From Cloeon dipterum (taxonomy: Eukaryota; Arthropoda; Insecta; Ephemeroptera; Baetidae), in assembly GCF_949628265.1 (NCBI RefSeq), contig NC_088787.1, positions 13,816,501-13,880,500 on the forward strand: a DNA stretch of 64,000 bases. Reading direction: 5' to 3'. Of this stretch, positions 12,701-46,865 are shown in pieces. How positions within the stretch are numbered: position 1 is the stretch's first letter; every line of letters starts with the position of its first letter. Under the pieces are notes generated by a model, which saw only the letters and a program-made list of their open reading frames with translations, was not told the origin of the DNA and did no database searches. The translations under genes and the position numbers were made by a program.

Positions 12701-14140
12701 AACGGAAACCTGGGAGATTTTTAGCTTTTTCCAATTTTTTTAAAAACGTATATCAAAGTAAAGGTTAAAAAGGATTTCTCACAAATTTTCTGTAAAGCTT
12801 TACTTAAAAATCTTTAATATAATACTAACGACGGTCAATTTTGTGTGCCATTGCGTGTAAGTTGATGGATGAGGGATTACGAACGATCGAAAATTTGATT
12901 TTTCATTTTCAATGCTCTTCTTTTGTTTCACTGTCATCCTGTTGACGGTAAAATTAAAATAAGAGCGCACAGAGACAAAATCGGAGTTATAAATAGATTA
13001 AAGCTATTCCTCGGCACAATGCTGTTGCCCCCGGTTCGAATGAAAATCCTATTTGATTAACACACAAATCCTTTAAGACGCGTCCTCTACATAGCGCGAA
13101 AGCTGGCGATCAGCCCAAATTGCTTTGTCAGCCCCAATGTGTCCCCACCCCTCTGAGAGCGGCGGCACTAACTTCTAACTCGCTTGTTGCAGATCTGCGC
13201 CGAGATCAAACCAACACTACAGCAGCGCCTGGTGGACGAGTACTCGTCCAACGCCGACTTCACCGAAGTGTGGGACAGCCTGCAACGCAGCGCCAAGTGC
13301 TGCGGCGTGGCCAGCCCACGCGACTTTCTGCCGCTGACGCCGCAGAGTCCCGGCGAGGGGGGCAACAACACAACCATCGTGGTGCCGCACAACCTGCAGG
13401 GCTGGTGGGGGTGGAGCAAGGAGGGCGACGAGAGCATCCTGGTGCCGCAGAGCTGCTGCAGGCCGGTGATGGTGGAGACGACCACCGCCGGCTCGCTGGC
13501 CAACGAGACGCTGCTGCTGCAGAGCAGACAGCGTTGCGAGGTGTTCTCGTCGGGCTGCGAGCAGCACCTGCTCAGGTGGCTGCGCACCAACGCAGACCTG
13601 CTCTTCGTCATCGGCTACTGCGTGGTGGCGTTCGTCAAGCTCAGCTTCCTCGGAATCCTGCACTACGAGATCAGGGAGATGATCCAGAAGATCAAGCTGA
13701 TGCAGCAGGAGCGAGAGGCGTTCGCCAACTCTGGCGCTGACCTGACCCTGGCCAACCACTATCAGGCCCTGCCGACCAACCTGCCCCCCTCCCCTGTGCA
13801 CATGAACCACTTGAACCACGCGCCCGCGACGCAGCCGACCCCGATGCGCAGTGCGCAGTCGCCTGCGCCTGCGCAGCAACAGCAGCAGCAGCCGCTGCCG
13901 CCGCCTCAGCAGCAGTCGGACAGCTTGTTTGGATCGTCGCCGCCGACTTCGCTGCAGGCGCACATGCTCAGCTCGCCGTCGCAGTTCTCGCGGCTGCCGA
14001 ACCACTTGCTGCGCTGCGTCGAGGACGGCAACAACTCGGACACGGGCAGCCACTGCGCCCTCATCTCGTTGGACTGCAAGTCGAGCAGTTTTGAGAACAA
14101 TAACAAAGACACTACTACGTCGCGCCAGACGCAGATCTGA
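6762..14140 (+). CDS. tetraspanin with long Gln/Pro-rich cytoplasmic tail
   Basis: Two visible exons, 6762-7171 and 13193-14140, joined in phase 0. The acceptors are TTGCTGTTGCAG and CGCTTGTTGCAG and the donor is CAG|GTACAG. Exon 1 encodes transmembrane segments 1-3 (starting YYRLWIYACNVALLASVVGF; TM2 near YAYLALIVQCGAVQVLG; TM3 YWLFLFLLLCGDVLIGLSWI). Exon 2 holds the large extracellular loop with the diagnostic CCG motif (SAKCCGVASP), PQSCC and a later GC pair, then TM4 (LLFVIGYCVVAFVKLSF) and a tail of about 140 residues rich in Q, P and S. Tetraspanins organise membrane microdomains. The usual length is 220-300 aa; from the in-frame ATG at 6836 this would be 427 aa because of the tail. The start is unsure: the frame stays open upstream to the acceptor, so an N-terminal exon may lie further left. 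I cannot assign the subfamily. Confidence 0.85.
7172..13192 (+). other. 6-kb intron of the tetraspanin gene
   Basis: This lies between the GTACAG donor and the polypyrimidine-GCAG acceptor. I see no gene inside. It contains one copy of a dispersed repeat at 12536-12805, listed separately. A ggttcgaat string near 13036 resembles a tRNA B box, but no cloverleaf surrounds it. Confidence 0.7.
12536..12805 (+). repeat. dispersed repeat family X, copy 1
   Basis: It shares two blocks with 49165-49470: a first block GGACCGAGGAACAGT(T) followed by TAATTTCA or AAATTTCA, and a second block running from an ACTTTTGAGCC-like start to a shared CACAAATTTTCTGTAAA. A third copy of the second block is at 52061-52212. 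Copies are clearly diverged, so this is an old family. No terminal repeats or coding capacity were found. Confidence 0.6.
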
Positions 14141-32316: not shown

Positions 32317-34035
32317 CAGTGTTCGGAAAAAGCCGGCTTTTTTAGAAAAATTTCGTCCAAGCCGGTTTTAACCGGTTTTTAGCCGGCTAAATTGGCAAAA
32401 ATTGGCTGAAATTAGATTTTCTTCTTTTGAAATACTTAAAGTATAATGAAACAATTTCTCCCCTAATATCAATTTTGAAGCCGCATTTCAATTCTCCAAC
32501 GCCCTTATTTAATTAATGACCTTATTAATTAAGAGGTTAAATGTTGCTTTTCATAATTATTATCCTTTTAATTTATTAGAAAACACGTATAAACATCATA
32601 ATTATGAATATTCTTGCGTTTTAAACAAAATAAATGGTCAGCAAAGAGCAGAGCAGACCTTGAAGCACGCAAGAATGTAGAAGGTACAATCTTCTATCCT
32701 TTAGCTGCTTGTGTTACTGAAAAATATAGTACATCATTTTCATTAACTTGGCTCATCAATTATGCGGTTTTGCTTGCTCACCGAGACTTCAAGTAGCTAT
32801 GACACTTGCAAAGTTTCAGCACCGTCTCGGGTTTTAAGCGGTTGCGTTTGTCAGTCCAGATGTTTTTAGCAGTACTGAACTCACGCTCAATGCCTGCTGA
32901 CGATGGAGGTACTCCTAAAAGGTTTGCAGCAAAGCGGCAGAAGGATTTGAGGTGCTGTCCCTCTCTTGTACGTGCGCAGACTTTTGCCTGCATGACGAGC
33001 CACCATTTTGATGGAGTCAAAGTCTCGGTGATCTTAAGCTGTAGGGTAGCAGGGTGAAAGACATCTGCATCTTGTAGCTCCCACAGTGCAAGATATTGAG
33101 ACCAGGTAGTGCCACCAGCTTCTTCTTCTTCTTGAGGGGCAGGTTCAGAGCTCTCTTGCTCACTTTGGCTCAAAAATGAATCAGCTGCATCCCTGTATTT
33201 AACATCCAAATTCTCAGCTTTTTCTGAAACGTCAGGAAAAATATGTTATTATCGAAATTAAATTTAAATTTTATTTTATTTATTTTTCACGATTATATTT
33301 CTCAATATATTTAAATGATCCTTAAAACAATCACTTAACTGTCATCAATCATATAGATTTTTATAAAATATTTTAGAAGAATAAATCACATCAATTTAAT
33401 TAGAGTAATTGTTATGAAGTTTTACATTTAAAGAAAATAAATGCGATCTGCCAGCTCACCTCTGTTTCGCGGGTCAAGAATGAATGCAAGCCAATGAGCT
33501 GGGGAAAGACCCTCCATCTTTTCTTCAATTTCTTTCTCATATGGTTCTAATTCAGAACAATCAAGGAGACTCAGAAAGGCATCAGCTGCGTCAGAGAGAT
33601 TGGCTTTGTTGGACTGAACCTGAAAAATTTATAAATGAAAATTTTTTATATAGAAACATCTATTGAAATGAAAGCACCCTGTAAAGACTAAATACAAATT
33701 CTGGAAATATTCATACAAATTACACCAAATATGTACCCTATCAACGGCCCTTGCGACAGCGTTCGTCTGCGTACGGAGCGCAATAGCTTCGGCCAACAGT
33801 CCCACATTCCTGAGGAGTTTTTGGATGTCGCGTTCGACATCATTGGGCCGTTCAGACATGATGACCAAGTACTTGCTATGGTTTGAGATGAATGATTTCA
33901 GCGAGTCATCCAGGGAGCACCACCTAGTTTCCACAGGCAGAATTGGCATGGTACCTCCCATTTCTTTCAGTCTTTGCTGCAAATATTATAAAATTAATAA
34001 ATTTATAATATCGTGAAACTTGAATCTTTATATTT

Positions 34036-34038
34036 ACC
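34036..34038 (-). other. hAT transposase intron 3 donor region
   Basis: Exon 3 ends CGATTGGG followed by GTAAAT. It is cited because the splice keeps phase 0 on both sides, supporting that this transposase is intron-containing rather than frame-broken. Confidence 0.6.
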
Positions 34039-35348
34039 CCAATCGCATGCCTTGACTTAAAAAATTTCTGGATTTTCACTACTTGCTTCACAATGACTGG
34101 CTGACAGATTTTTTCACCAAGCTTCGCAAGAAGATGGGCGCCACATCCAAATACCACAAGGCCATCATATTTTTCTTTCAGTTTTCTACGCACTGCCTTC
34201 ATTTTGTTTTCAGAGTCCGAGCAGAAAGCAAAGGGCTGGAAAAGTGGCAAATGAAAATTTTTAATCACGCTTAATCTTTAATGTAGACTCATTGATAATT
34301 TAAAATTTCATTTGGTTCTTTTGATTGATAAAGATTTGCAATTCATAATATCAATGTTTATAATGTTTACCATACGACCATATTTTTCGTTGCAGGTAGA
34401 AATAATATTTTCTGCAACGTTTGTGCAGTATTCAGCTGTTTTAATCTCGGAACCTGCGTTGTCCAGTGCGAGTAGAAAGCATCTACCCTTGACCTGAATA
34501 GATGAGCCAATGATTGGCTGATGAGCCGTTGAAGTCCAGCCATCTTGGCTAATAGAATACGGAAGATTTGTATTCTTCATGAGGTCTTCCAGCGCTGCGT
34601 CAGCTTTCTCAGCACACCTGTCCAGCAGTGGTCCACTGAGTTTTTTACTAGAAGGTGGTGTGTATCCAGGTCTAATAACCTCGAACATCTTCTTGTATGT
34701 TTCACTCGCTGCAGTATTGAACGGGATGGCGTTGCCGAAAACATATTCGGCAACCCTCTCGTCCATGATCTAATTGGAAAGTTAAAATTAAGCAATGTAA
34801 TAATATGTAATAAATAACAACGTGAACAATATAAGTTCTGCATGGATGACGTCAGATTCAATTTTATTTTGTAACTATTTGTACGTGCAATGTATGCATG
34901 CATGTATGTATCAATTCATTTTCATTTAATTTTAAAACGTCTGTTACTTATATTATATTTTCTCTTTCACGTCTTTTACGTACAATTGCTACAAACAGAA
35001 TCACCTACCCGAGCCATGGAAGGCGTTGTTTTGCAAACGAAAGAAGCTAACGAATTCTGTTGCTTTGAAGATCCCGAACCACTTAAACTTTCTGTTTGGT
35101 GCTCCTTCTCCACCAAGTTTTGAACTTCTTTCATTCCTTCCTCAGCTTCCACGACTTCGACTTCCTCTTCATCAGTAGTTGTAATAAGCTCCCGTCTTTT
35201 TCTATTGTCCTTTTTAAAGACCCTGCAGTAATCCGCTAAATGTTTTTTAATACGCTGGGGACGTCCACTCATTTTATCTCCACAGTGGTTGCATACAATA
35301 TTTGTCACTGTCTTCCCAATCGGCTGACTTAACCTTTTCTTCTCGTAC

Positions 35349-35351
35349 ATG
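35349..35351. other. 3-bp target-site duplication of the inner element, left copy
   Basis: ATG directly before the inverted repeat starting CCCAGCAG. The right copy is at 46803-46805. Three-base duplications are typical of CACTA/EnSpm elements. Confidence 0.8.
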
Positions 35352-35371
35352 CCCAGCAGAAAATCTTGAGC
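35352..35371 (+). repeat. terminal inverted repeat, left end of inner element
   Basis: Begins CCCAGCAGAAAAT and matches the reverse complement of 46783-46802 at 18 of 20 positions. Confidence 0.85.
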
Positions 35372-35850
35372 ATTAATGAGCGAGCAAGGCTGCTCATTCT
35401 TGCTCGAGTTGCTTTTTTAGGCATTTTTCATGCTCAGCTCGCTCATCGCTAAAATCGCTCGCGAGCAATTCTTGGTTTTTCTTGCTCGAGCGGCTCGCAT
35501 CAAAAAAGAGCAGAAATTGCTCGCGAGCAATTCTTGTTTTTTCTTGCTCGAGCGGCTTGTATTAAAAAAGAGCGTAAATTGCTCGTTTTTTCTGGCTCAT
35601 TTCCGCTCTGCTCGCTCTTGCTCACTTTTGCTCATGAGCAACCCTTGCTTTTTTCAGCTCAACCTGCTCGAGCTTAATTGAACTCGCTAATTTTCTGCTC
35701 ATTCATGCTCTGCTCGCTCTTGCTCACTTTTGCTCATGAGTAACACTTGCTTTTTTCAGCTGACACTGCTCGAGCTGAAAGTGTCTTGCTAAATTCGGCT
35801 CATTTCACGCTCGGCTCGCTCTCGCTCATTAAACTGGCTTGCGAAAATAT
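35372..35850 (+). repeat. left subterminal repeat array
   Basis: Dense variants of TTGCTCG, GCTCGCTCTTGCTC and TTGCTCATGAGCAA (the last palindromic). The mirror-image array lies at 46380-46782. In plant En/Spm such subterminal motifs bind the accessory protein TNPA; here they are candidate binding sites for the element's own proteins. Confidence 0.8.
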
Positions 35851-35878
35851 TTGCCAAAATATAGACAGTCGCCAATGA

Positions 35879-35884
35879 TTTATT
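35879..35884 (-). terminator. candidate poly(A) signal of the TNP2-like gene
   Basis: AATAAA on the minus strand about 113 bases after the TAA stop at 35999-35997. Confidence 0.4.
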
Positions 35885-35996
35885 TTGGTTTTATATTTAC
35901 GAATCAAATTGAATGCTTCAGATTAACATGCATGCATGAGACCAAAACGAGGATGGGTTATGAATGATAGATAAATAAAACTGTATATTATGCTTT

Positions 35997-38900
35997 TTAC
36001 TGGGCCTCTTCATTATTTGGTGGAACACTAACATACAACTTTCCATTTGTCATTTCCATCAAAATACAAACACCCTTGACCATTTCGGCATCTACCACCC
36101 TCAATCGCTGGTGCGCCACACTTGCTGAATAAAGATGAGGGAGCTTCAGGTCTTCCATATTCAGTTCACGATCGCCCGACCTAATTGTGCACTTTTTGAT
36201 GATGTGTGGCGTGCAGTTCAAAGATAAAATTTTTAATCTGACTTTGTTGTTTTCAACAATTTTCATGACATCTGTGACGATACCAAATGTATTGTCTTTC
36301 AGTTGCACGCAAGAGTCACATTTGCGTGTACCCTTCTGACTCTCAAAAGTTCGAAGGACAAATCCTGACCACAGTGCTTTCTTGAAGTGCTTCCCTTCAG
36401 CATCTTCAGACGTTGGTGGGCCTCTTGTCTCAGGTGGTCCGACTTTGGTAGATTTGCCTTCTAAGAGTTGGGAAACGTACTCTTTTGTTTGTTGCCTCCT
36501 GAGCACTGTCTGTGCAATGTGAGGGAGCGATTCTCTCATGATTGCACGCTCCATTACCTGTTGTGCGGTAGCTTTCGTGCTGCTGATGTCTTTTTTGATG
36601 TCTGGGAACTTTCCTTCATACTGGTATGCCGAAAAGTTTTGTAACGGACCCATTCGAGCAACAGCCAATGGCCAGTGAAGAGACTGATGAAGGTTTGACG
36701 TCATGACCAGAGTTCCGTAGAGTGTCACATATCCTTGAGAATGCTCCTCTAGGTAGGTTTGAGCAGTAATCAGATCAGTCTCCGTAATCGTGGACTGATT
36801 AAGGAGCCAATATGCAGCGACAAATCTGTAAAGCAAGTAAATATAATAATACAGATGGGTGTAAAGTGAAAGTATAGAACAGGCTGGAAATATTTATATT
36901 TAAGAGAAAATCAAATGACAAAAGATATACGTTTTAACTTCAGGGAAGAGATTTCATTTTTCTACTTAAATAAGAGTTTTGAAGATAAAAACAATTTTCG
37001 ATTAATTTTAATTTGTAAAATTTAAAAAATTTACTTGCATAATTAAAAATTTAAGTAGATATAATTAGAAGATTATTAAGTATTTGGGCAGATTGCCGCA
37101 TAAATACAGTATTATTTAATTATTTGCAATTATAAATAAGTTTTAGAAAAAACATTTACCTTGCCCAAACCGCTACATCTTTTGGCTTCTGTACCTCAAT
37201 GAGCAATGGCACACTCAAGTGAAGAGTCCACAACTTTGCCTGGCTAGCTTTCCATGATTTAAAGTCTGTAAATTTTGTGAGCAATCTTGCATTTTTCAGA
37301 GTCGGCAGTCGCACCTCAGACATATTTTTGTCGAGGAGCATTCGCTTTGCAGGAGTGTAAATGTAGTAGTCTTGGCGAAAATTGCTTGTCCACAATTTCA
37401 GGACTGTTTTTGAGTGGCCTACATCAGCTAAAAAAGAGAATATCAATTTAAAAAAGTGTAATCTTCTATAATTAAATAAGTAATTTACCCGCGTGCATCT
37501 GCTCAACTCCAATATTTTCAGGGATGAGAAACCCTGGTAGATCCAGCAGAACGCTTTCATTTTGAACACCCTTGCAGGGCTCACCTGTGCTTAAGGCAGT
37601 GTCCAAATCCTCTTTCCAGGATACGTTAGTGCGTAGTGGCGCACATGGTTCTCGAAAAGTATACCTGGCAAATATCGTGTATTTATGAATGATAATCAAT
37701 AGAAGCAAAAAGCAATAATTAACTGGTGTATAAATTTCAACGCTATATATATATATATAAAATAGCTAGAGGGGCCACAAAAAGTCAAAAACTGAAAAGC
37801 GCGCAGCTTTAAAAATAGAAATATATTAATTGCTTTATGAATTTACTAGAGATGCACAAAGTAGTGGTTAAATATTAAAATATTTAATGTTCTCTCATTT
37901 TCTACGTACCTGTTGTACGACTGCCCAATGGCGTCGTTGGGGTGATAACACCAAGTGCATCCAAATTGAGCATTGTGTACGCATGACCCGATCATCTTGG
38001 GTCTCGCGACCGAGTCTGCGACTGCTGTGAGTGGGAAAATTTTACAGTTTCTCGCTTCTCCGTTGTGGTCCGTCCACTGAATTCCTTTTTCAGCAATATA
38101 CCTAGCCTCTTTAACAAAAGGCTGTAGAAGAACATTCATATCAGGCTCTTTTCGGCCCACCCAGATTGCTGCTAGCTTCACGTTTCGAGACCTAGAGATA
38201 GGGAATAAATAAAAGAGTTGCATATATTAATTATTAATTAGAGAGGGATCAAATAATATTTTTCTGTAGCTACTAAATTTAGAACTTTATAAACGAAAGC
38301 ATGTAATATATTTATCAAGCAGTTATTCAGATTTATTAAATAAAGCTGCTGCGCAGAAAATCGACCATCAGCTTCTAGATCTGCGAGTATTTGTATTTTT
38401 GTCGTTAAATTATTATATTTTCAGAAAGTTGTGCCCTATTATTATTAGCCTGCATATGTATATATATAAAATTTAATGAAATACTTAGTCATATTTATTT
38501 AGCCATATTCATTCAACCATATATATATATATACACATTTACCTCTCCGATTTTTTAATAAAGTTTGGAGCCAACATCAGAGCAAAAATGGATTTCTTCG
38601 AGGCTTCGAAAGCAGGTGCAGCATCCCCGAAAATGTTGTAACTATGAATGGACGGTCCGAATTTTCCACGAAGCGAAGCGTGGATGCTTCCATCTGGGAG
38701 ATCAGAAAAGACTTTCTCTTCTCCATCTGCCCTCACTAATGGCATTTCAGCAAAGTTTCCATCATAGCTCTCGCTATTCTTCTCAAGTGTTGATGACAAA
38801 ATATTCTTCAGCTTGGCGGTAAAGAAGAAATTTTCTTCCTTTTCTGATTTTTTGATCAACTCATTGCATGATGGACAGAGTAACTTTTCTTCTTTCAATC

Positions 38901-40681
38901 CCACATATTTCATGCACTTCTTGCAAAAAACATGACATTCCATTGTGTCACTGGTTGCTTTGTAAAGTTTTTTCAACTTATACTGGTTGTCCGGAAAGTC
39001 ATTAGTTCCAAGGAGAAGATTGAGTCCGCGGAAAATCTCGGTTTTCAAAGAGTCAGTAGAGTTGTGTTTAATGAGTATTGATAAAATGACAAGCGTCATA
39101 TCTGCCACACTTGGACCATCAGGAGGGTAAAGGGGGACCTGTGGCAACTTCAGAAAAGGAGCAGCGAAACTCTCGTTTTTGTCAAATTCCTCTGGTAGTG
39201 AGTCCTCATTTGACTCCTGAAATAATAATAATCATGGCATAAATTTTAATTTTTGGGAAATATATAATTTATGAGAAACTAAAGATTATAATTAAAGAAA
39301 ATTCATTAATATTAATTGACGCATTTTCCCAGCAAAGTTTAAATTCCCAGTTTAAAATGTACCATAAAAGCAAAAATAATATGATGAAAGGTGAGCATTT
39401 AGCTATTAAAGTACCTCCTCTTGCTGCCCATTATTAATTTCTTCGTCGCTATTATCCTCGTCGACGTCGCTCTCATCAACTTCAGAATCATTGAGAGAGG
39501 AAACAGACGTCGTTGTAAAATCATCAGCATCGGCGTCAATCTCGGAGGAGGGAGAAGCTCGTCGTTCCATCTTGGCAAAATAATAATAATGAAAAACATC
39601 ACAATAAATACTTTCTTCTTAATTTTAAACATTAAATGCAACTGTATTACTTCACATTCAGGCTCTTCTTCATAATGGCCATCATCGCTTTCTGGTGATG
39701 GTTGGTCATCGTTGTCACTGCATCTATCAACTCCTCTTTCATCATGCGTTATACGAGTCTGAGAATCTTCATCATTTTCACTTGCCTCACGGTCATATTC
39801 ATCTCCCTTAAATTTTTTTAAATAAATTATATATTATTATTATTAACGTCTCAAAATTGATTTTCTTGTTTGTATTTTTATCAAACACATTAATATTAAA
39901 TTTACTGTGGTATTTTCATTTTTTGTTATCATTTATAAACATTGATTTAAAATATATTTCAAAAATATGAACAAAAAAGTCATGTATTGTAACCATTTTC
40001 GATTCAATTTATTTGTTTGTTTCTCAGGTGATGATCTTCTCAAAATGCACACTTTCTGATTATTGAAAACAATAATGTAAAAAAATGCAAAAGGAAAAAC
40101 AAACATTTATAACAATACAATCATAGTAGTTTTACAAAATGGAATTCCAAATAATATTCTAAAATGTGCCAAATAAAATTGTGTTACCTTCACGGTAGTT
40201 CCATATTAATTTTTTTCTAAATTTTATAGATTTTTAAATTTTGCAAAAAGTTAATTGAAAATTTTAAAGTAGTGAAATGAAAATAATTTTTTTAAGTATA
40301 ATTACTGCAAAACCACAACCCCAAAAATTTCAACAGACTCATCAATCATTGCACACTAATCATCACTAATATTTATTTACAAATTAAATTTTTAAATTCC
40401 TCCTGCATACCAGTCAGAGGCCTATATAAATATTAGAATATTTTCTCATTATAATATTATTTGTATTTTCATTGAAAATTATGAAAAATTATTTTTTCAC
40501 TTACCGGTGATGACATGTTATTAGTGGTCTCTTCTGCATAAGCTTGATCCATAGCTTGGGCTGCTTTCTTCCTCCAGTTATAAATTGTCTGCCTCGGCAA
40601 TTTATTATTACTGTGCAACACACGGTAACTCTTCCTTTTTCGTGGTCCTGCTGAACCACTGCTTTCGAGTTGTTGATCCAT
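35997..40681 (-). CDS. TNP2-like transposase (Transposase_21 type)
   Basis: Eight minus-strand exons in consistent phase: 40681-40505, 39806-39651, 39570-39415, 39216-38543, 38191-37910, 37664-37489, 37427-37160 and 36825-35997, giving about 905 aa. The N-terminus is a basic helix-turn-helix-like piece (LPRQTIYNWRKKA), followed by two acidic exons (Asp/Glu/Ser). Exon 4 has a C-x2-C...C-x2-C zinc-knuckle-like cluster (CHVFCKKC...LLCPSC). The core carries the TNP2 signature: IWVGRKEPDMNVLLQPFVKE, then ADSVARPKMIG...FGCTWCYHP, then GVQNESVLLDLPGF...VEQMHAG, then LHQSLHWPLAVARMGPLQNF. This order matches plant and animal CACTA transposases. The function would be cutting and joining the element ends. 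I did not assign the catalytic acidic residues. Confidence 0.83.
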
Positions 40682-41983
40682 TTTGGTCCTTTTATTATCA
40701 GAAGGAAACCAAAATGTAGATCAGTATATATGCTATATGCACAGGCAAACTCAAAACCAAAACAATAATCCATACGCAGATTCGTTCATATGGAAGCCCA
40801 GGCAGAATGCACGAACAACCAGCGCGCGCTTTCTAGGTAAATTAATTTAGCGGGCAAAGCGTTGCACACACAGAAGCCAATCAGCGTTGAGTGTCGATTT
40901 GGTCTCCAGACGCCACCGCAGACCGCACACTACTGCATTGCTTCCTTACCTCACGATCGGTAATTTCATTATTGTTGTCTCGCACTCTGTTCCGGCTAAA
41001 ATATTCGCCGAAATCACTCTTGAGATCAAAACAACGAGATAGTCGTGACAGTGAATGTAGAAGAAAACGGACTACATCTTCTTAATAATAAATTACCGAC
41101 TCTTGTTGGAAACACAATAAGCAAGGTTAGTTCCTAAATAAGTGTTGATTATGTATTTTTTGTTTGTGTCAATGCATGTCCCGAATTTTAAGTGCGCGCA
41201 GTTATATTTGCGAAGTCACACATGTAAATAATTGAAGATAAACTGTGTAAATGTATGTACATGCACACATGATAATGCATGAACATGCATGCATGAATGT
41301 ACTTTGTGCATGTTTCGTAAATGCATGTACTTTGTGCATGTGTAAATGGATAATTATATAATGACATAGATATGCACAAAAAATGCATATTGCACATACA
41401 TGCATGTACATATTGCATTTATTTACATGCATGTACATAATGCATTTACATGCATGTATGTACATAATGCATTTACATGCATGTATGTACGTAATGCATT
41501 TACGTGCATGTATGTACATTAATGCATTTACATGCATGTATGTACGTAATGCATTTACGTGCATGTATTTACATAATGCATTTACATACATGCATGTACA
41601 TAATGCATTATTTACTTGCATGTATGTACATAATGCATTTACATGCATGTAAATATGTACATAATGCATGTACATGCATGTGTACATAATGAATGCACGT
41701 GCATGTGTACATAATATTGCATGAATATTGCACATACATTTACATGCATGAATGAATATGCATACTTAATTAAAGCACTGAATTCTGACCAAAAGTCTCA
41801 ATTGGATTGTTATTTTTGTTGATTTTATTCTGTGTGCATGTTTTTGCTCAGCAGTGCAAAAAAGAATCAGAAACAGCAATAATGAATACTTAAATTTTGT
41901 TAATTATTTCGTCAATTTCATTTGTAAATGAATATGTTTTATTTATTTCTAATTCATAGGTTGCTCCAGTTAAACTTTTAATC
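40682..41983. promoter_or_regulatory. divergent spacer between the two element genes
   Basis: A 1.3-kb spacer between the two start codons. It must contain both promoters if the genes are expressed. A possible 5' untranslated exon of the BEN gene ends at a donor-like AGCAAG|GTTAGT near 41126, with an acceptor ATTCATAG just before 41960. The spacer also contains the 27-bp minisatellite. No TATA box is assigned. Confidence 0.5.
41240..41750. repeat. 27-bp minisatellite, ACATAATGCATTTACATGC type
   Basis: Repeats of about 27 bases built from ATGCAT, CATGCATG and TATGTACATA. Units vary by one or a few bases. Because the unit is nearly self-complementary and stop-poor, long but meaningless open frames occur on both strands. 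It lies in the divergent spacer of the inner transposon. Confidence 0.9.
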
Positions 41984-44900
41984 ATGACGAGCCAATCTCG
42001 ACCTTCACCAGAGAAGGCTAATCAAGAAGGACGTAATTACGTCGTTATTGAATGGTTCCAGTCGAAAAAAACGCAAGTTTGTTTGGTTGACGAAGTAAAC
42101 AATATGGATGATCCCCCAAAAAAAGGAACCAAGAAGTACAACGTGATTTCTGGAAAAGATAAAAGTGGCAGGCTTGAAACAAAACCAGCTCTGATTTTAC
42201 ATGGCCCAGGTAATTTTTAGTTTTTAACCATCTCTTAAGTAAGTTTTGTTTTTATTAATAATTATTTGTTAAATTAGGCACTTTTTGTGAAATGCAAGAG
42301 ATGGAAAAATTGAGGAAACTTGACGCTGACTGTGTTTTCCCTGGAGAGAGACCCAAAAGGATCCGAAGGTTGCCTGCCAAAAATTTAGAAACTGCCGATG
42401 AGGAAGATAGACCGAGATCTCCGTCAAAGAAAATGGGGAAAAAAGCGGTATATATAAATATATCTATATATTTTTATCAATTGTGTTGCATGTTTCATTA
42501 TATTAATTTCTAGCATGGAACCAGTAACATGCAAATTGATCTGTTAAATGCAATATCAAGAGCTAAAGAGGTGAATTTGCCAAGCGATGAAGACGAAAAC
42601 AACACCTCTCTTGATGGTCCAGGAGCCACTCAAGAAAATCTGGGCAAAGAACGCAAGAAAGCGAGCAAGAAATGCAGTACTCAAGAGAAAAGGGCGCCAA
42701 AGACGAACACTGTGACTAAGACTGGAGCTGCTAATAAGGACACCACCACCCAGAAAGTCAATATTCACAGTTCCCAAGAGAGGAGCAGGCCTCTGGCCAA
42801 ATCCGCTGGTTCCATGAGGCTGGACGGAGGTCGTGGAAATAACAGGCCGACTGCTGGATCGTCTAAGATGTAATGATATCAAATTATTTGATTTTTGCAA
42901 TTGGTAATTTTGTTTCTACAAATGAAAGGCCTGAGAAAGGAAAGGAGAAGGTTCAGTTTACTGAGAGTTTAGCAGCAGGAACCGGTGATGGAGAAGATAG
43001 CGACACCTCTTTTGATGGTCCAGGAGCAACCCAAGAAAATGTGGGCAAAGAAAGCAAGAAAGCAAGCAAGAAATACAGTACTCAAGAGAAAAGGGCGCCA
43101 AAGACGAACACTGTGACTAAGACTGGAGCTGCTAAGAACACCACCACCCAGAAAGTCAATATTCACAGTTCCCAAGAGAGGAGCAGGCCTCTGGCCAAAT
43201 CCGCTGGTTCCATGAGGCTGGACGGAGGTCGTGGAAATTACAGGTCGACTGCTGGATCGTCTAAGATGTAATGATATCAAATTATTTGATTTTTGCAATT
43301 GGTAATTTTGTTTCTACAAATGAAAGGCCTGAGAAAGGAAAGGAGAAGGTTCAGTTTACTGAGAGTTTAGCAGCAGGAACCGGTGATGGAGAAGATAGCG
43401 ACACCTCTTTTGATGGTCCAGGAGCAACCCAAGAAAATGTGGGCAAAGAAAGCAAGAAAGCGAGCAAGAAATGCAGTACTCAAGAGAAAAGGGCGCCAAA
43501 GACGAACACGGTGACTAAGACTGGAGCTGCTAATAAGGACACCACCACCCAGAAAGTCAATATTCACAGTTCCCAAGAGAGGAGCAGACCTCTGGCCAAA
43601 TCCGGTGATTCCATGAGGCTGGACGGAGGTCGTGGAAATTACAGGTCGACTGCTGGATCGTCTAAGATGTAATGATATAAAATTATTTATTAAAATTTAG
43701 CTTTTTCAATTGGTAATTCTATTTTACACATGTCACAGGCTTGAGAAGGAGCATGACGAAGATGCTGACAGCACAGATCATCGTGAAGTTGAGACACATT
43801 CATCCGAAGAAAGACGGCGTCAGATTCAAAGAGGTAAAAATTATAAATGATCATTTTTTATATTATGCACTTAAATTTAATTCTTAGAGTGGTCATCTGA
43901 TGGCCTTTTTTCTGATTGGGATGACGCTGTCGTTCAAGGTGCGATAAATATATATCTGTTAGCGGGCAAAATAAGGGCTATTCACCCAACTGTTTAATTG
44001 ATTTTTATTGTAGGTGAGAGCAGTCACGAGGTTGACCCTTTACCATCAAGGTCGTCTCAGTTTGTGGGTAAAAAACCAAGTCTGGCCAGTGAAGGTGAAG
44101 TTTTGTTTTTTATTTATTTTTATGTATATAATAAATCTCAAATTTAGACCGATCTTGTTGCTGCTCAGTGGAAATGCTACAGTTAATTCACGTGCTGGAT
44201 AGCAAAATTGACCTGCTCCTTAAGTCCAGTGCTGCTATGAGAGGAACGCAAGCTGCTTCCGATGAACCTGATTTGCTACAGATTGTGTGCAACAATTACG
44301 TAAGTCAATTTTAATTTCAGTTTTCATATCATATTTTGATCCCAAATTTCATGATACAGAACTACATCGGCAATGGCTACGTGCTCCTGAGAGGAAGATA
44401 CGCTTCGGTTGATATGTACACGAGTCAGCGTCCTGCGAGATTTGTCACTCAAATGACAAAGGCCGTGTTTGGAGATGACATTTTGAGCAGGTCCCGTCTG
44501 AATGCTGAGCGAGGAGACTTCCTTGCACTTGACTGCAAGCTCGTTGAGTGCATTTTCCGTAAGTGCCTCTCTCTTCTCCTTTTGGTTATCTGAATACTTA
44601 ATTCTTTAGAGCTTGCTTTCACTGTGGTTATTATATGTTAGATTTTTTAGGCAAAAATATGCAGCTAATTTCAGGTCTGAGAAATTTTGAGATGGCTAAA
44701 TTAATGTTGTACAGTTTGAGAGAGCGCAAAACACGTAGTTTTTCTTTGAAAATTTCACCATTTGCCATTTATTATCCTAAATCACGTGTAGGAGTTTTAA
44801 ATTTTAAAATGCTTTGAGTTTAAAAAAAACCGAAAAGTCAATAAAGATAATTATTATTTTACGTGTTTATTATTTTTCTGTTTTGCTGCATGAAAGAATT

Positions 44901-45566
44901 TATTCTGTGAGGTGATTGATTATATTAAATCATATGAGCATAAAGGTAATCTTGCAAAACTTTTCTAATTTTAGTAAGCCAGAGAGCGTACTGCGAGATG
45001 AACAATCTCACCCCACTGACTATGGCAGCAACCAGAAGAATCGTTTCGAATGTTTGTCAGCGTGCTAATCCCAACACAAGTGTGTGGACCAGCCATGGCT
45101 ATCGACAGTTGACAGAAGTTGTTCCCACTGCTGACTGTGATGATGGTGAGTAATTATTTAAATTGTGATCCTTTCTTTTAAATCTATATATTACTAGAAT
45201 TGCTCAATGAAAGTAGAAATAATAGTACCACATTAAAATACGCATTAATTAATTTTTTAAAAATTGCCTTTCTAATTTGATACAATATCGTAAACAAATC
45301 AGAGCCCTTTTAACAAATTGTTTTTATGCCGAAAATATCATACTTTCCGGCCAATCATCATTGAATCGTCGAGATAGATGCATATCATTGATTTTGTTTC
45401 TGGTTTCTGTGACGGTTTATTTGGATGGCAAAGATGAACCTGTTTTTTTTTAATTTTTGGGATTAGGCTATGGCAAATTTATCAGGAAAACGCGAGTTGC
45501 ACTTTTTTTAAATTAATGTACATCTCAATTGATTTGTTTTTAGCTAGCCACACAGACACAGAATGA
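41984..45566 (+). CDS. BEN-domain protein encoded by the transposon
   Basis: Twelve exons in consistent phase: 41984-42209, 42278-42447, 42514-42869, 42929-43267, 43327-43668, 43739-43833, 43888-43938, 44014-44094, 44148-44299, 44360-44558, 44975-45145 and 45544-45566, about 734 aa. The N-terminus (VVIEWFQSKKTQVCLVDEV) resembles the short N-terminal segment seen in some BEN-type proteins, but I cannot name it. Residues about 133-477 are three tandem low-complexity Lys/Thr/Ser/Glu-rich exons. Exons 10-11 (about 605-705) encode a BEN-like fold: IGNGYVLLRGRY...RFVTQMTKAVFGDDIL...LALDCKLVECIF. BEN domains bind DNA or chromatin partners in cellular factors. Its position suggests an accessory DNA-binding role in transposition, which is inference. 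Very short last exon (ASHTDTE). Confidence 0.75.
42514..43724 (+). repeat. tandem exon-intron triplication inside the BEN gene
   Basis: Exons 3, 4 and 5, together with the following introns, are copies of a 398-bp unit (exon starts 42929 and 43327). Copies 2 and 3 are nearly identical in exon and intron. Copy 1 diverges at its 5' part, where its exon begins with unrelated codons. The coding part includes FDGPGATQENVGKESKKASK and ends GSSKM. All three keep the same splice phases, so copy number can change without breaking the frame. Confidence 0.92.
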
Positions 45567-45631
45567 TCCGCAGCTTATGAGGTGAGAAGTTACTCCAAAA
45601 AGTTTATTTTTGTATTTTGAAAATCGGTATC

Positions 45632-45637
45632 AATAAA
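45632..45637 (+). terminator. candidate poly(A) signal of the BEN gene
   Basis: AATAAA 66 bases after the TGA at 45564-45566. Confidence 0.45.
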
Positions 45638-46379
45638 ATACAGCAATTTAGGTTCCTAAAAATGCAAATTTTATTCAAAATATTGCCATTTATGGTTTTC
45701 AAGCAAAGCTGTTTCATATGTTTAAGCAATATTATCGCTCAATCTTATTTAATAATTTTAATTAATTTATTCTTTAATTATTTTCTCGTTTGCATTTCAT
45801 GAGTTCATTAATTTTGGAATTTTCTGTAAGAGCAAAGACACCTAAGACAGGCAAAAACTTTAAAGCAGCAAAACATTTCCTTTTATTGAGAAAAAAAATG
45901 AGCTTTTTTAGATCATGTAATTAACACACAGCTTTTATGAATTTAATACAAGGCTTAAAAACGTATTAGTGAATTTAAATCCCCTGTTCAGTTATAACGC
46001 GCTTGGCTTGGCTAGATAGCATATTTCTTGCTTCTTGCTCATTACCACTTCCATTATTGCATAAAAAACATGCTCTTTTTTGGTTGCAGTTATTAACGAA
46101 CAAGAAATATGCATACTTGAGCCATTCTGGCTCATTTTTATTTTCGATCGCTCATTTATTTGGAACATTCCTGCTCTCCACCTCAGTTCTCGTGATTTGC
46201 TGGCTAAGGCGTGCATATTTCTTGCATGTAAACGCTTTTTGCTTTTTATTGCCTCCTCATATTGTTGCAATAATGCAAGCGTTAATGTGCAATAAAAATG
46301 AATTGACTGTCAAGTCAGTGCTAGCGCGTTTCAGCAGTAAATGGGATTAAAAAAAACTAATTTGAATCAAACGGGAGGG

Positions 46380-46782
46380 AGTACAGAGCTGCAATTGTGA
46401 GCATGAATGAGCCAGAATAATCCTAGAAACGAACTGAGGTTGCGAGCAACAATGTTTAAAAAAGTGTCTATATATGAGCGAGCAACAGAGGCGTTTTTGA
46501 GCGAGTAGCTTGAGCAGATAAAAGCACCTTTGAGCGATAAAAAGCACAAATGAGCCAGAAAAATCCTAGCGAGCAAGAAAGAGCCAATATGTTCCATATA
46601 CGTGCCTAAATGAGCGAGCAACAAAAGCGTTTTTGAGCGAGCAGCAAGGGCAGCAGAAAGCAGCATTGAGCGAAAAATAGCAGAAACGAGCCAGGAACCG
46701 AACTTAGGTTGCGAGCAAGAAAGAGCAAGAATGTCCCAAATACGTGTGTAAATGAGCGAGCAAGAAAGAGCGGCAAAAAGCC
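46380..46782 (-). repeat. right subterminal repeat array
   Basis: Repeats of GAGCGAGCAA, GAGCAAGAAAGAGC and TTGCGAGCAA, the inverted counterpart of the left array. A related block in the opposite orientation (GCTCATTTATTTGGAACATTC near 46150) lies further inside, so the right subterminal region is partly palindromic. Confidence 0.8.
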
Positions 46783-46802
46783 GCTCAGAATTTTCTGCTG
46801 GG
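46783..46802 (-). repeat. terminal inverted repeat, right end of inner element
   Basis: Ends ATTTTCTGCTGGG, the inverse of the left terminus, and is followed by the duplicated ATG. Confidence 0.85.
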
Positions 46803-46865
46803 ATGGGTCCATACCAGATCTTTTTTTCTTCCACAGTTACTGCCACTGGGAGAGGTTTTGGGCAT
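46803..46865 (-). pseudogene. N-terminal fragment of the hAT transposase (21 codons)
   Basis: ATG at 46865, then 21 codons ending GRKKDLVWTH, the usual start of a BED-finger hAT transposase (basic stretch plus VW). The last codon, CAT, is the 3-bp target duplication of the nested element. Deleting that element and one ATG/CAT copy brings this fragment next to the BED finger at 35347, but with one surplus base (35348), so the two parts are out of frame as sequenced. Confidence 0.75.

Follow-up and report, generated by a model that had tools for sequence, protein, structure and literature searches.

A CACTA-type transposon of Cloeon dipterum with a probable BEN-like partner gene beside its transposase

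Within a window of 64,000 nucleotides from the insect Cloeon dipterum (the whole stretch analysed, contig NC_088787.1, forward-strand positions 13,816,501 to 13,880,500), we describe a CACTA-type transposon of 11,451 base pairs (bp) that encodes a transposase and a second, divergently transcribed protein, here called the partner. The reading that we favour, with moderate confidence, is that of a recently active, autonomous two-protein CACTA element in which a BEN-like partner takes a role like that of TnpA in plant elements, and not that of a recent gene capture. The evidence comes from four full copies of the element in the host genome, from the catalytic residues of the transposase, and from partner genes beside other transposase genes of the same genome.

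Four copies of a two-gene element

The element and its two genes are placed in the window as follows.

35352..46802: complete CACTA-type element, 11,451 bp; both ends and the duplication read, three further copies with the same ends
35349..35351: left target-site duplication, ATG, 3 bp, read directly
46803..46805: right target-site duplication, ATG, 3 bp, read directly
35352..35371, plus strand: left terminal inverted repeat, CCCAGCAGAAAATCTTGAGC
46783..46802, minus strand: right terminal inverted repeat, CCCAGCAGAAAATTCTGAGC as read on the minus strand
35997..40681, minus strand: transposase gene, 8 exons, 905 amino acids; internal splice sites all GT-AG, frame open
41984..45568, plus strand: partner gene, 12 coding exons, 734 amino acids, divergent from the transposase; internal splice sites all GT-AG, frame open
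42602..43688, plus strand: tandem 398-bp exon-intron repeat over partner exons 3-5; three units in the C2 and C4 copies, two in C1 and C5

Matching ends with a 3-bp duplication, and two genes open throughout, had been proposed at these places in a sequence-only reading of the same DNA; all were recovered when rebuilt, with GT-AG splice sites throughout, and the copies on contigs C1, C4 and C5 put chance out as their explanation. The host genome was searched over 190 Mb in 10 contigs, and all counts of loci are lower bounds. The partner C-terminus finds at least four near-identical places and one distant relative, while the transposase recovers these four together with at least eight that are more distant. 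All four near-identical places are full copies with both ends and both genes, on four different contigs (C1, C2, which is the window copy, C4 and C5). The 3-bp duplications differ from copy to copy (ATG in the window; CAT, TAT and TAA in C1, C4 and C5, respectively). Identity to the window copy, indels excluded, is 99.89% for C1, 99.86% for C4 and 99.86% for C5, and the movement is therefore recent. The transposase frame is open in three of the four copies (C1, the window copy and C5) and disrupted in C4, where exon 4 carries an insertion of 2 bp and exon 8 one of 1,808 bp. In all four copies the partner frame is open; its C1 and C5 versions, of 621 amino acids, miss one unit of the 398-bp exon repeat, and the two splice sites flagged there fall inside the absent unit. 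Taken by these sequence features, the element is probably a recently active, autonomous cut-and-paste transposon.

Copies that lack the BEN gene, named beforehand as an observation that would speak against the two-gene reading, were not found among the full copies. A 3,063-bp relative (L078/L079, C4:3722904-3725966) has diverged but similar ends (68% left, 74% right) and a TTT duplication, gives no tblastn match to transposase or partner at E ≤ 1, and looks like a non-autonomous follower. Its starts recur at C1:18863637 and C1:31795410, and one of these two places (L077) shows a 32-residue transposase match (E 0.065). Two further places resemble one end of the element at 76-78%, L073 (C1:38416606) the right end and L074 (C2:8959210) the left; in neither case did the 2 kb examined contain the opposite end.

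Ends, transposase and surroundings

The ends follow the consensus CCCAGCAGAAAATyyTGAGC and carry a CCC core (CCCAGCAG). The termini start with CCCAG and the CACTA core is absent, so that the element falls outside the narrow, plant-based definition of CACTA. Inside the ends and between the genes lie three repeat regions.

35352..35851: left subterminal repeat region with TTGCTCG and GCTCGC motifs; 8 of the 17 TTGCTCG sites in this 500-bp bin; tandem units 62 and 102 bp long
46352..46802: right subterminal repeat region; a 451-bp bin with 6 of the 17 TTGCTCG sites; tandem units 136 and 20 bp long
41394..41715: tandem array of CATG-rich 27-bp units, situated between both coding regions

The two end bins, 951 of the 11,451 bp, thus hold 14 of the 17 TTGCTCG sites in the element, a motif that was chosen only after words had been ranked at the element ends. 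Both subterminal regions are largely made of tandem units, and the element has in this respect the subterminal repeats of the CACTA superfamily.

Putative catalytic residues of the transposase are D361, which was assigned by eye, D447 and E700, with C466, C469, H676 and H680 as putative zinc ligands. In an alignment with seven relatives, one of them partial, D447, E700 and all four ligands are invariant; L052, whose frame is broken up, was excluded. The D-19-C-2-C and H-3-H-20-E patterns are intact in the window protein, and the strict spacing is kept in 6/7 relatives for the first pattern and in 5/7 for the second. The predicted structure of one relative, L046, matches the RAG1 and Transib fold in its catalytic part, at 9-14% identity among the matches listed. 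Spacings of D-19-C-2-C and H-x-H-20-E are presumably common to the window transposase and RAG1. The window element differs from RAG1 and Transib in its 3-bp duplication, its other ends and an additional C-terminal part.

The label TNP2-like, given on first inspection, holds as 'like' only, since the Transposase_21 profile scores the 905-residue protein at 17.8 bits (E 0.0021) with a cut-off of 28.6; among its relatives, L046 reaches 18.3 bits and L050 gives no match. Comparison with the animal TRC elements (SmTRC1 and relatives), as they are described in the accessible text of PMC1636069, cuts both ways. They have terminal repeats that start with CCC, a CXXC motif and two aspartates about 80 residues apart (86 in the window transposase), and a Hydra element is described as starting with CCCAGCC (PMC4298943, in part). 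On the other side, the window transposase has an altered DG motif and another residue in place of the D of DxMH; it reads VEQMHAADVG where PMC1636069 gives L/V/I-D-X-L/M-H-X3-L-G; these alterations weigh against our assignment. The duplication is 3 bp in all four window-family copies and 2 bp in TRC, and the window element has an eight-exon transposase gene and a divergent partner gene, whereas the accessible text of that paper mentions no TRC partner gene. Judged by its residues, the transposase is a divergent CACTA type. By its terminal inverted repeats with a short duplication (2-3 bp in the superfamily), its catalytic residues and its subterminal repeats, the element belongs to the CACTA superfamily in the broad sense that includes animal TRC. 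The CACTA-type two-gene element first proposed is upheld by its ends and duplications, by both genes in four of four copies, by the catalytic spacing and by the RAG1/Transib-like model of L046.

As for the surroundings, pieces of a hAT transposase gene lie on the minus strand at 32778-35416 of the window (Dimer_Tnp_hAT 33.1 bits, DUF659 under its cut-off), and the CACTA element is inserted at their 5' end. No second copy of the 200 bp to the left of the element, which might have revealed an empty site, was found in the genome, the left flank being found once. A tetraspanin gene exon (59.2 bits) lies at 13172-14137. A search for the telomere pattern TTAGG had no match.

The partner gene and its C-terminal domain

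The partner consists of an N-terminal part, which matches no Pfam family, a charged linker delimited by eye, and a BEN-like C-terminus.

44360..45145, plus strand: BEN-like domain, exons 10 and 11 with a phase-1 intron between them; based on pairwise shuffle tests with the host BEN protein L025

Apart from the element copies, the genome search turned up one relative of the partner, L021 (C3:15142736-15145088; hereafter the C3 relative), a single-copy gene of the same layout that shares 30-48% identity with the partner per matched piece. It lies below a same-strand open frame of 225 codons that has no Pfam match better than E 0.11. The C3 relative may be a former (domesticated) transposon partner gene or a host gene, and it bears on the alternative of a recent host capture, also raised in the sequence-only reading, here in the form of a host chromatin gene that the element would carry as cargo. 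In favour of this stands the single-copy gene itself, which has the layout of the partner and a phase-1 intron at the corresponding position; the 19.7 kb around it hold nothing that matches the window transposase, and only a weak hit (E 0.19) to a transposase relative. Against it, this gene is only 30-48% identical per piece, as against 99.9% between element copies, no near-identical host donor and none closer than the C3 relative was found in the genome, and four other transposase genes have partner genes of their own. Recent capture of a host gene is thus unlikely, and as an account of the element as a whole we rate the cargo scenario as very improbable; we take the partner for a second gene already established in the element.

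These other partner genes were found in downstream flanks, which were read at five of the eight distant transposase places (a set to which L051, L052 and L054 do not belong). A same-strand gene follows the transposase in four of the five, namely F046, F047, F049 and F050 (named after L046, L047, L049 and L050), while no partner gene was seen by eye in the 4.1 kb examined at F053. The four share a layout of N-terminal domain, linker and C-terminal domain, and the N-terminal domain of F046 recurs in F047 (E 1.9e-16), F050 (E 2.6e-5) and F049 (E 0.002). Their C-termini are mutually related (0 to 29 of 1000 shuffles across the six pairs) and match the Pfam family DUF4806 (PF16064, cut-off 25) to varying degrees: 33.0 bits for F049, 23.7 for F046, 15.8 for F047 and none for F050. 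A search of the genome with PF16064 yields one weak place (E 0.028), beside L046. By hand alignment, a phase-1 intron stands at a matching place in the four F partners, the window gene and the C3 gene.

At the transposase gene of F047, ends of CCCACCAAGAAA are separated by 9,081 bp and flanked by a 2-bp duplication, CT. It is the only one of the five other transposase genes with exact CCC ends of at least 10 matching bases; upstream sequence extends to only 0.5-0.9 kb for three of the five, and their ends may therefore lie outside it. We infer that the window partner shares descent with the F-partner genes, and a partner of the BEN superfamily seems to be usual in these elements, of which the window element would be the divergently arranged, intron-rich case. 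The notion of a distinct two-gene lineage is supported and at the same time too narrow, because partner genes, with a DUF4806-type domain, also accompany other CACTA-like transposase genes in this genome. Shared descent has to be set against the lack of significant similarity between the window partner and the DUF4806 partners at either the N- or the C-terminus; one piece of the C3 relative matches the F046 N-terminus (E 0.003), but out of register.

BEN domains consist of two strands and five helices, of which the last binds DNA. The window domain and the C3 relative were each compared by pairwise shuffling with three Pfam-positive host BEN proteins and four DUF4806 domains, which makes 14 comparisons. 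With host BEN protein L025 as target, the window domain obtains a score of 45, which 14 of 20,000 shuffles attain whichever of the two sequences is shuffled (1 of 1000 in a first round); for the C3 relative the score is 53, attained by 1 and 0 of 20,000 shuffles. As a control, thirteen 100-residue pieces from the first 800 residues of the transposase and the first 500 of the partner score 18-31 against L025. These comparisons suggest that the C-terminal domain of the partner is probably BEN-like, and not a Pfam BEN member.

Several results weigh against a BEN assignment. L025 is the best of the seven targets tried; with L023 and L024, 32 and 94 of 1000 shuffles attain the score of the window domain (84 and 17 for the C3 relative); between true host BEN proteins, L023 and L025 give 452 of 1000 and the other two pairs 1 and 0. 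The Pfam BEN profile (PF10523) finds no match up to E 10 in the 734-residue protein or its parts, nor any in the C3 relative, while it does match the host pieces L023 and L025 as controls. On a home-made BEN profile the window domain is equalled by 235 of 729 scored shuffles (24 of 765 for the C3 relative), hhalign returns E 0.2 (also 0.18) with BEN and 0.32 with the DUF4806 partners, and sequence searches of the PDB with the domain and with a profile of the pair retrieve only a ribonuclease (E 0.46-0.47). Exon 10, folded with its C3 counterpart as a two-row alignment, gives a predicted local distance difference test (pLDDT) score of 52.5 and no useful match, with no BEN chain among the best 50 of 180 structure matches. 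A profile match for exons 10-11, whose absence had been named as refuting the BEN label, was thus not obtained, and what stands of that label is the pairwise similarity to L025. Relative to known BEN proteins (NACC1, BANP, BEND3, BEND6, Insv), the partner resembles them in this pairwise similarity to one host member and in the strand-strand-helix order predicted, at low confidence, for exon 10; it differs from BEN and DUF4806 proteins alike in matching neither Pfam profile.

The domain could instead be a diverged DUF4806-type or other helical DNA-binding domain and not BEN, in which case the two-protein system would still work. We regard this as unlikely, though less so than the other alternatives. 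The missing BEN profile match, the DUF4806 partners adjoining other transposase genes and the common phase-1 intron point towards it; DUF4806 is, moreover, termed a subtype of the BEN domain in the accessible part of PMC11075544, citing Pan et al. 2023, so that the boundary between the two is thin. PF16064 does not match the window partner, and a profile of the four DUF4806 partners gives scores at the level of chance, equalled by 196 of 726 and by 250 of 879 scored shuffles. Against this alternative, scores of the window domain with these partners are reached by 63-416 of 1000 shuffles, as opposed to 1 of 1000 with L025. The modelled exon 10 also places, at low confidence, two strands before a helix, an order described, in the text available, for the BEN domain of NACC1. 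In viral contigs, for which few peptide patterns were used, no confirmed relative of the BEN-like pair or of the transposase family appeared. Two papers that deal with bracovirus-borne or wasp genes found in moths refer to BEN domains.

Proposed mechanism and meaning

The maize element En/Spm offers a comparison. As far as the accessible text of PMC2613891 and PMC8195511 goes, it needs both TnpD and TnpA, TnpA binds the subterminal repeats, and the TnpA-like proteins of different elements have little similarity to each other. Both systems have two element proteins, subterminal repeats and a many-exon gene for the second protein (PMC2613891), and a 3-bp duplication is given for CACTA inserts in PMC8195511. 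The window element differs in ending with CCCAG instead of CACTA and in its BEN-like, divergently transcribed partner, whereas TnpA and TnpD are described as splice forms from one transcription unit (PMC2613891). By analogy, the partner most likely does the job of plant TnpA in assisting the transposase. The transposase, with its RAG1/Transib-like catalytic core, would cut at the CCC ends; the partner would use its BEN-like domain to bind the subterminal repeats, multimerise and draw the two ends to each other. It may in addition tune the stretch that separates the divergent genes. In this reading an unrelated DNA-binding protein would fill the place that TnpA has beside TnpD. The 27-bp CATG-rich array is a possible second target, as the BEN protein NACC1 is described, in the source as available, as preferring CATG. 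The two 500-bp bins that contain the array (40852-41851) hold 36 of the 75 CATG sites in the element, a count that carries little weight because the array is one repeated unit.

Alternatively, the partner might act on host chromatin, either against silencing or to steer insertion, and not on the element ends. The data give no hint of a host target, and the element has dense repeats at its ends like those to which TnpA binds in plants; we hold this alternative to be improbable. A broader proposal, put forward tentatively and with less confidence than our reading of the window element, is that animal CACTA elements form an old two-protein system, in which a BEN-superfamily (BEN/DUF4806) protein replaces TnpA and works with a transposase that has a RAG1-like core and a BAH-like, chromatin-reading tail, and that many orphan animal BEN/DUF4806 genes are former transposon partners. 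In the literature searched (subscription papers and Repbase lay outside it), no description of a BEN-type partner in a CACTA element was found in the text available; one publication contains both terms separately and unlinked, and the accessible DUF4806 literature names no transposon partner.

To our knowledge, little is known about how animal CACTA elements recognise their ends. DUF4806, according to the portions of the literature at hand, recurs across animal genomes with no known role. The second gene of the window element encodes a probable DNA-binding protein that may help the transposase locate the element ends, and a BEN-like partner between these ends gives both end recognition and DUF4806 a testable function, the binding of subterminal repeats. 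The RAG1/Transib-like model of L046 would link this group of elements to the RAG story, and some host BEN or DUF4806 genes perhaps began as parts of transposons.

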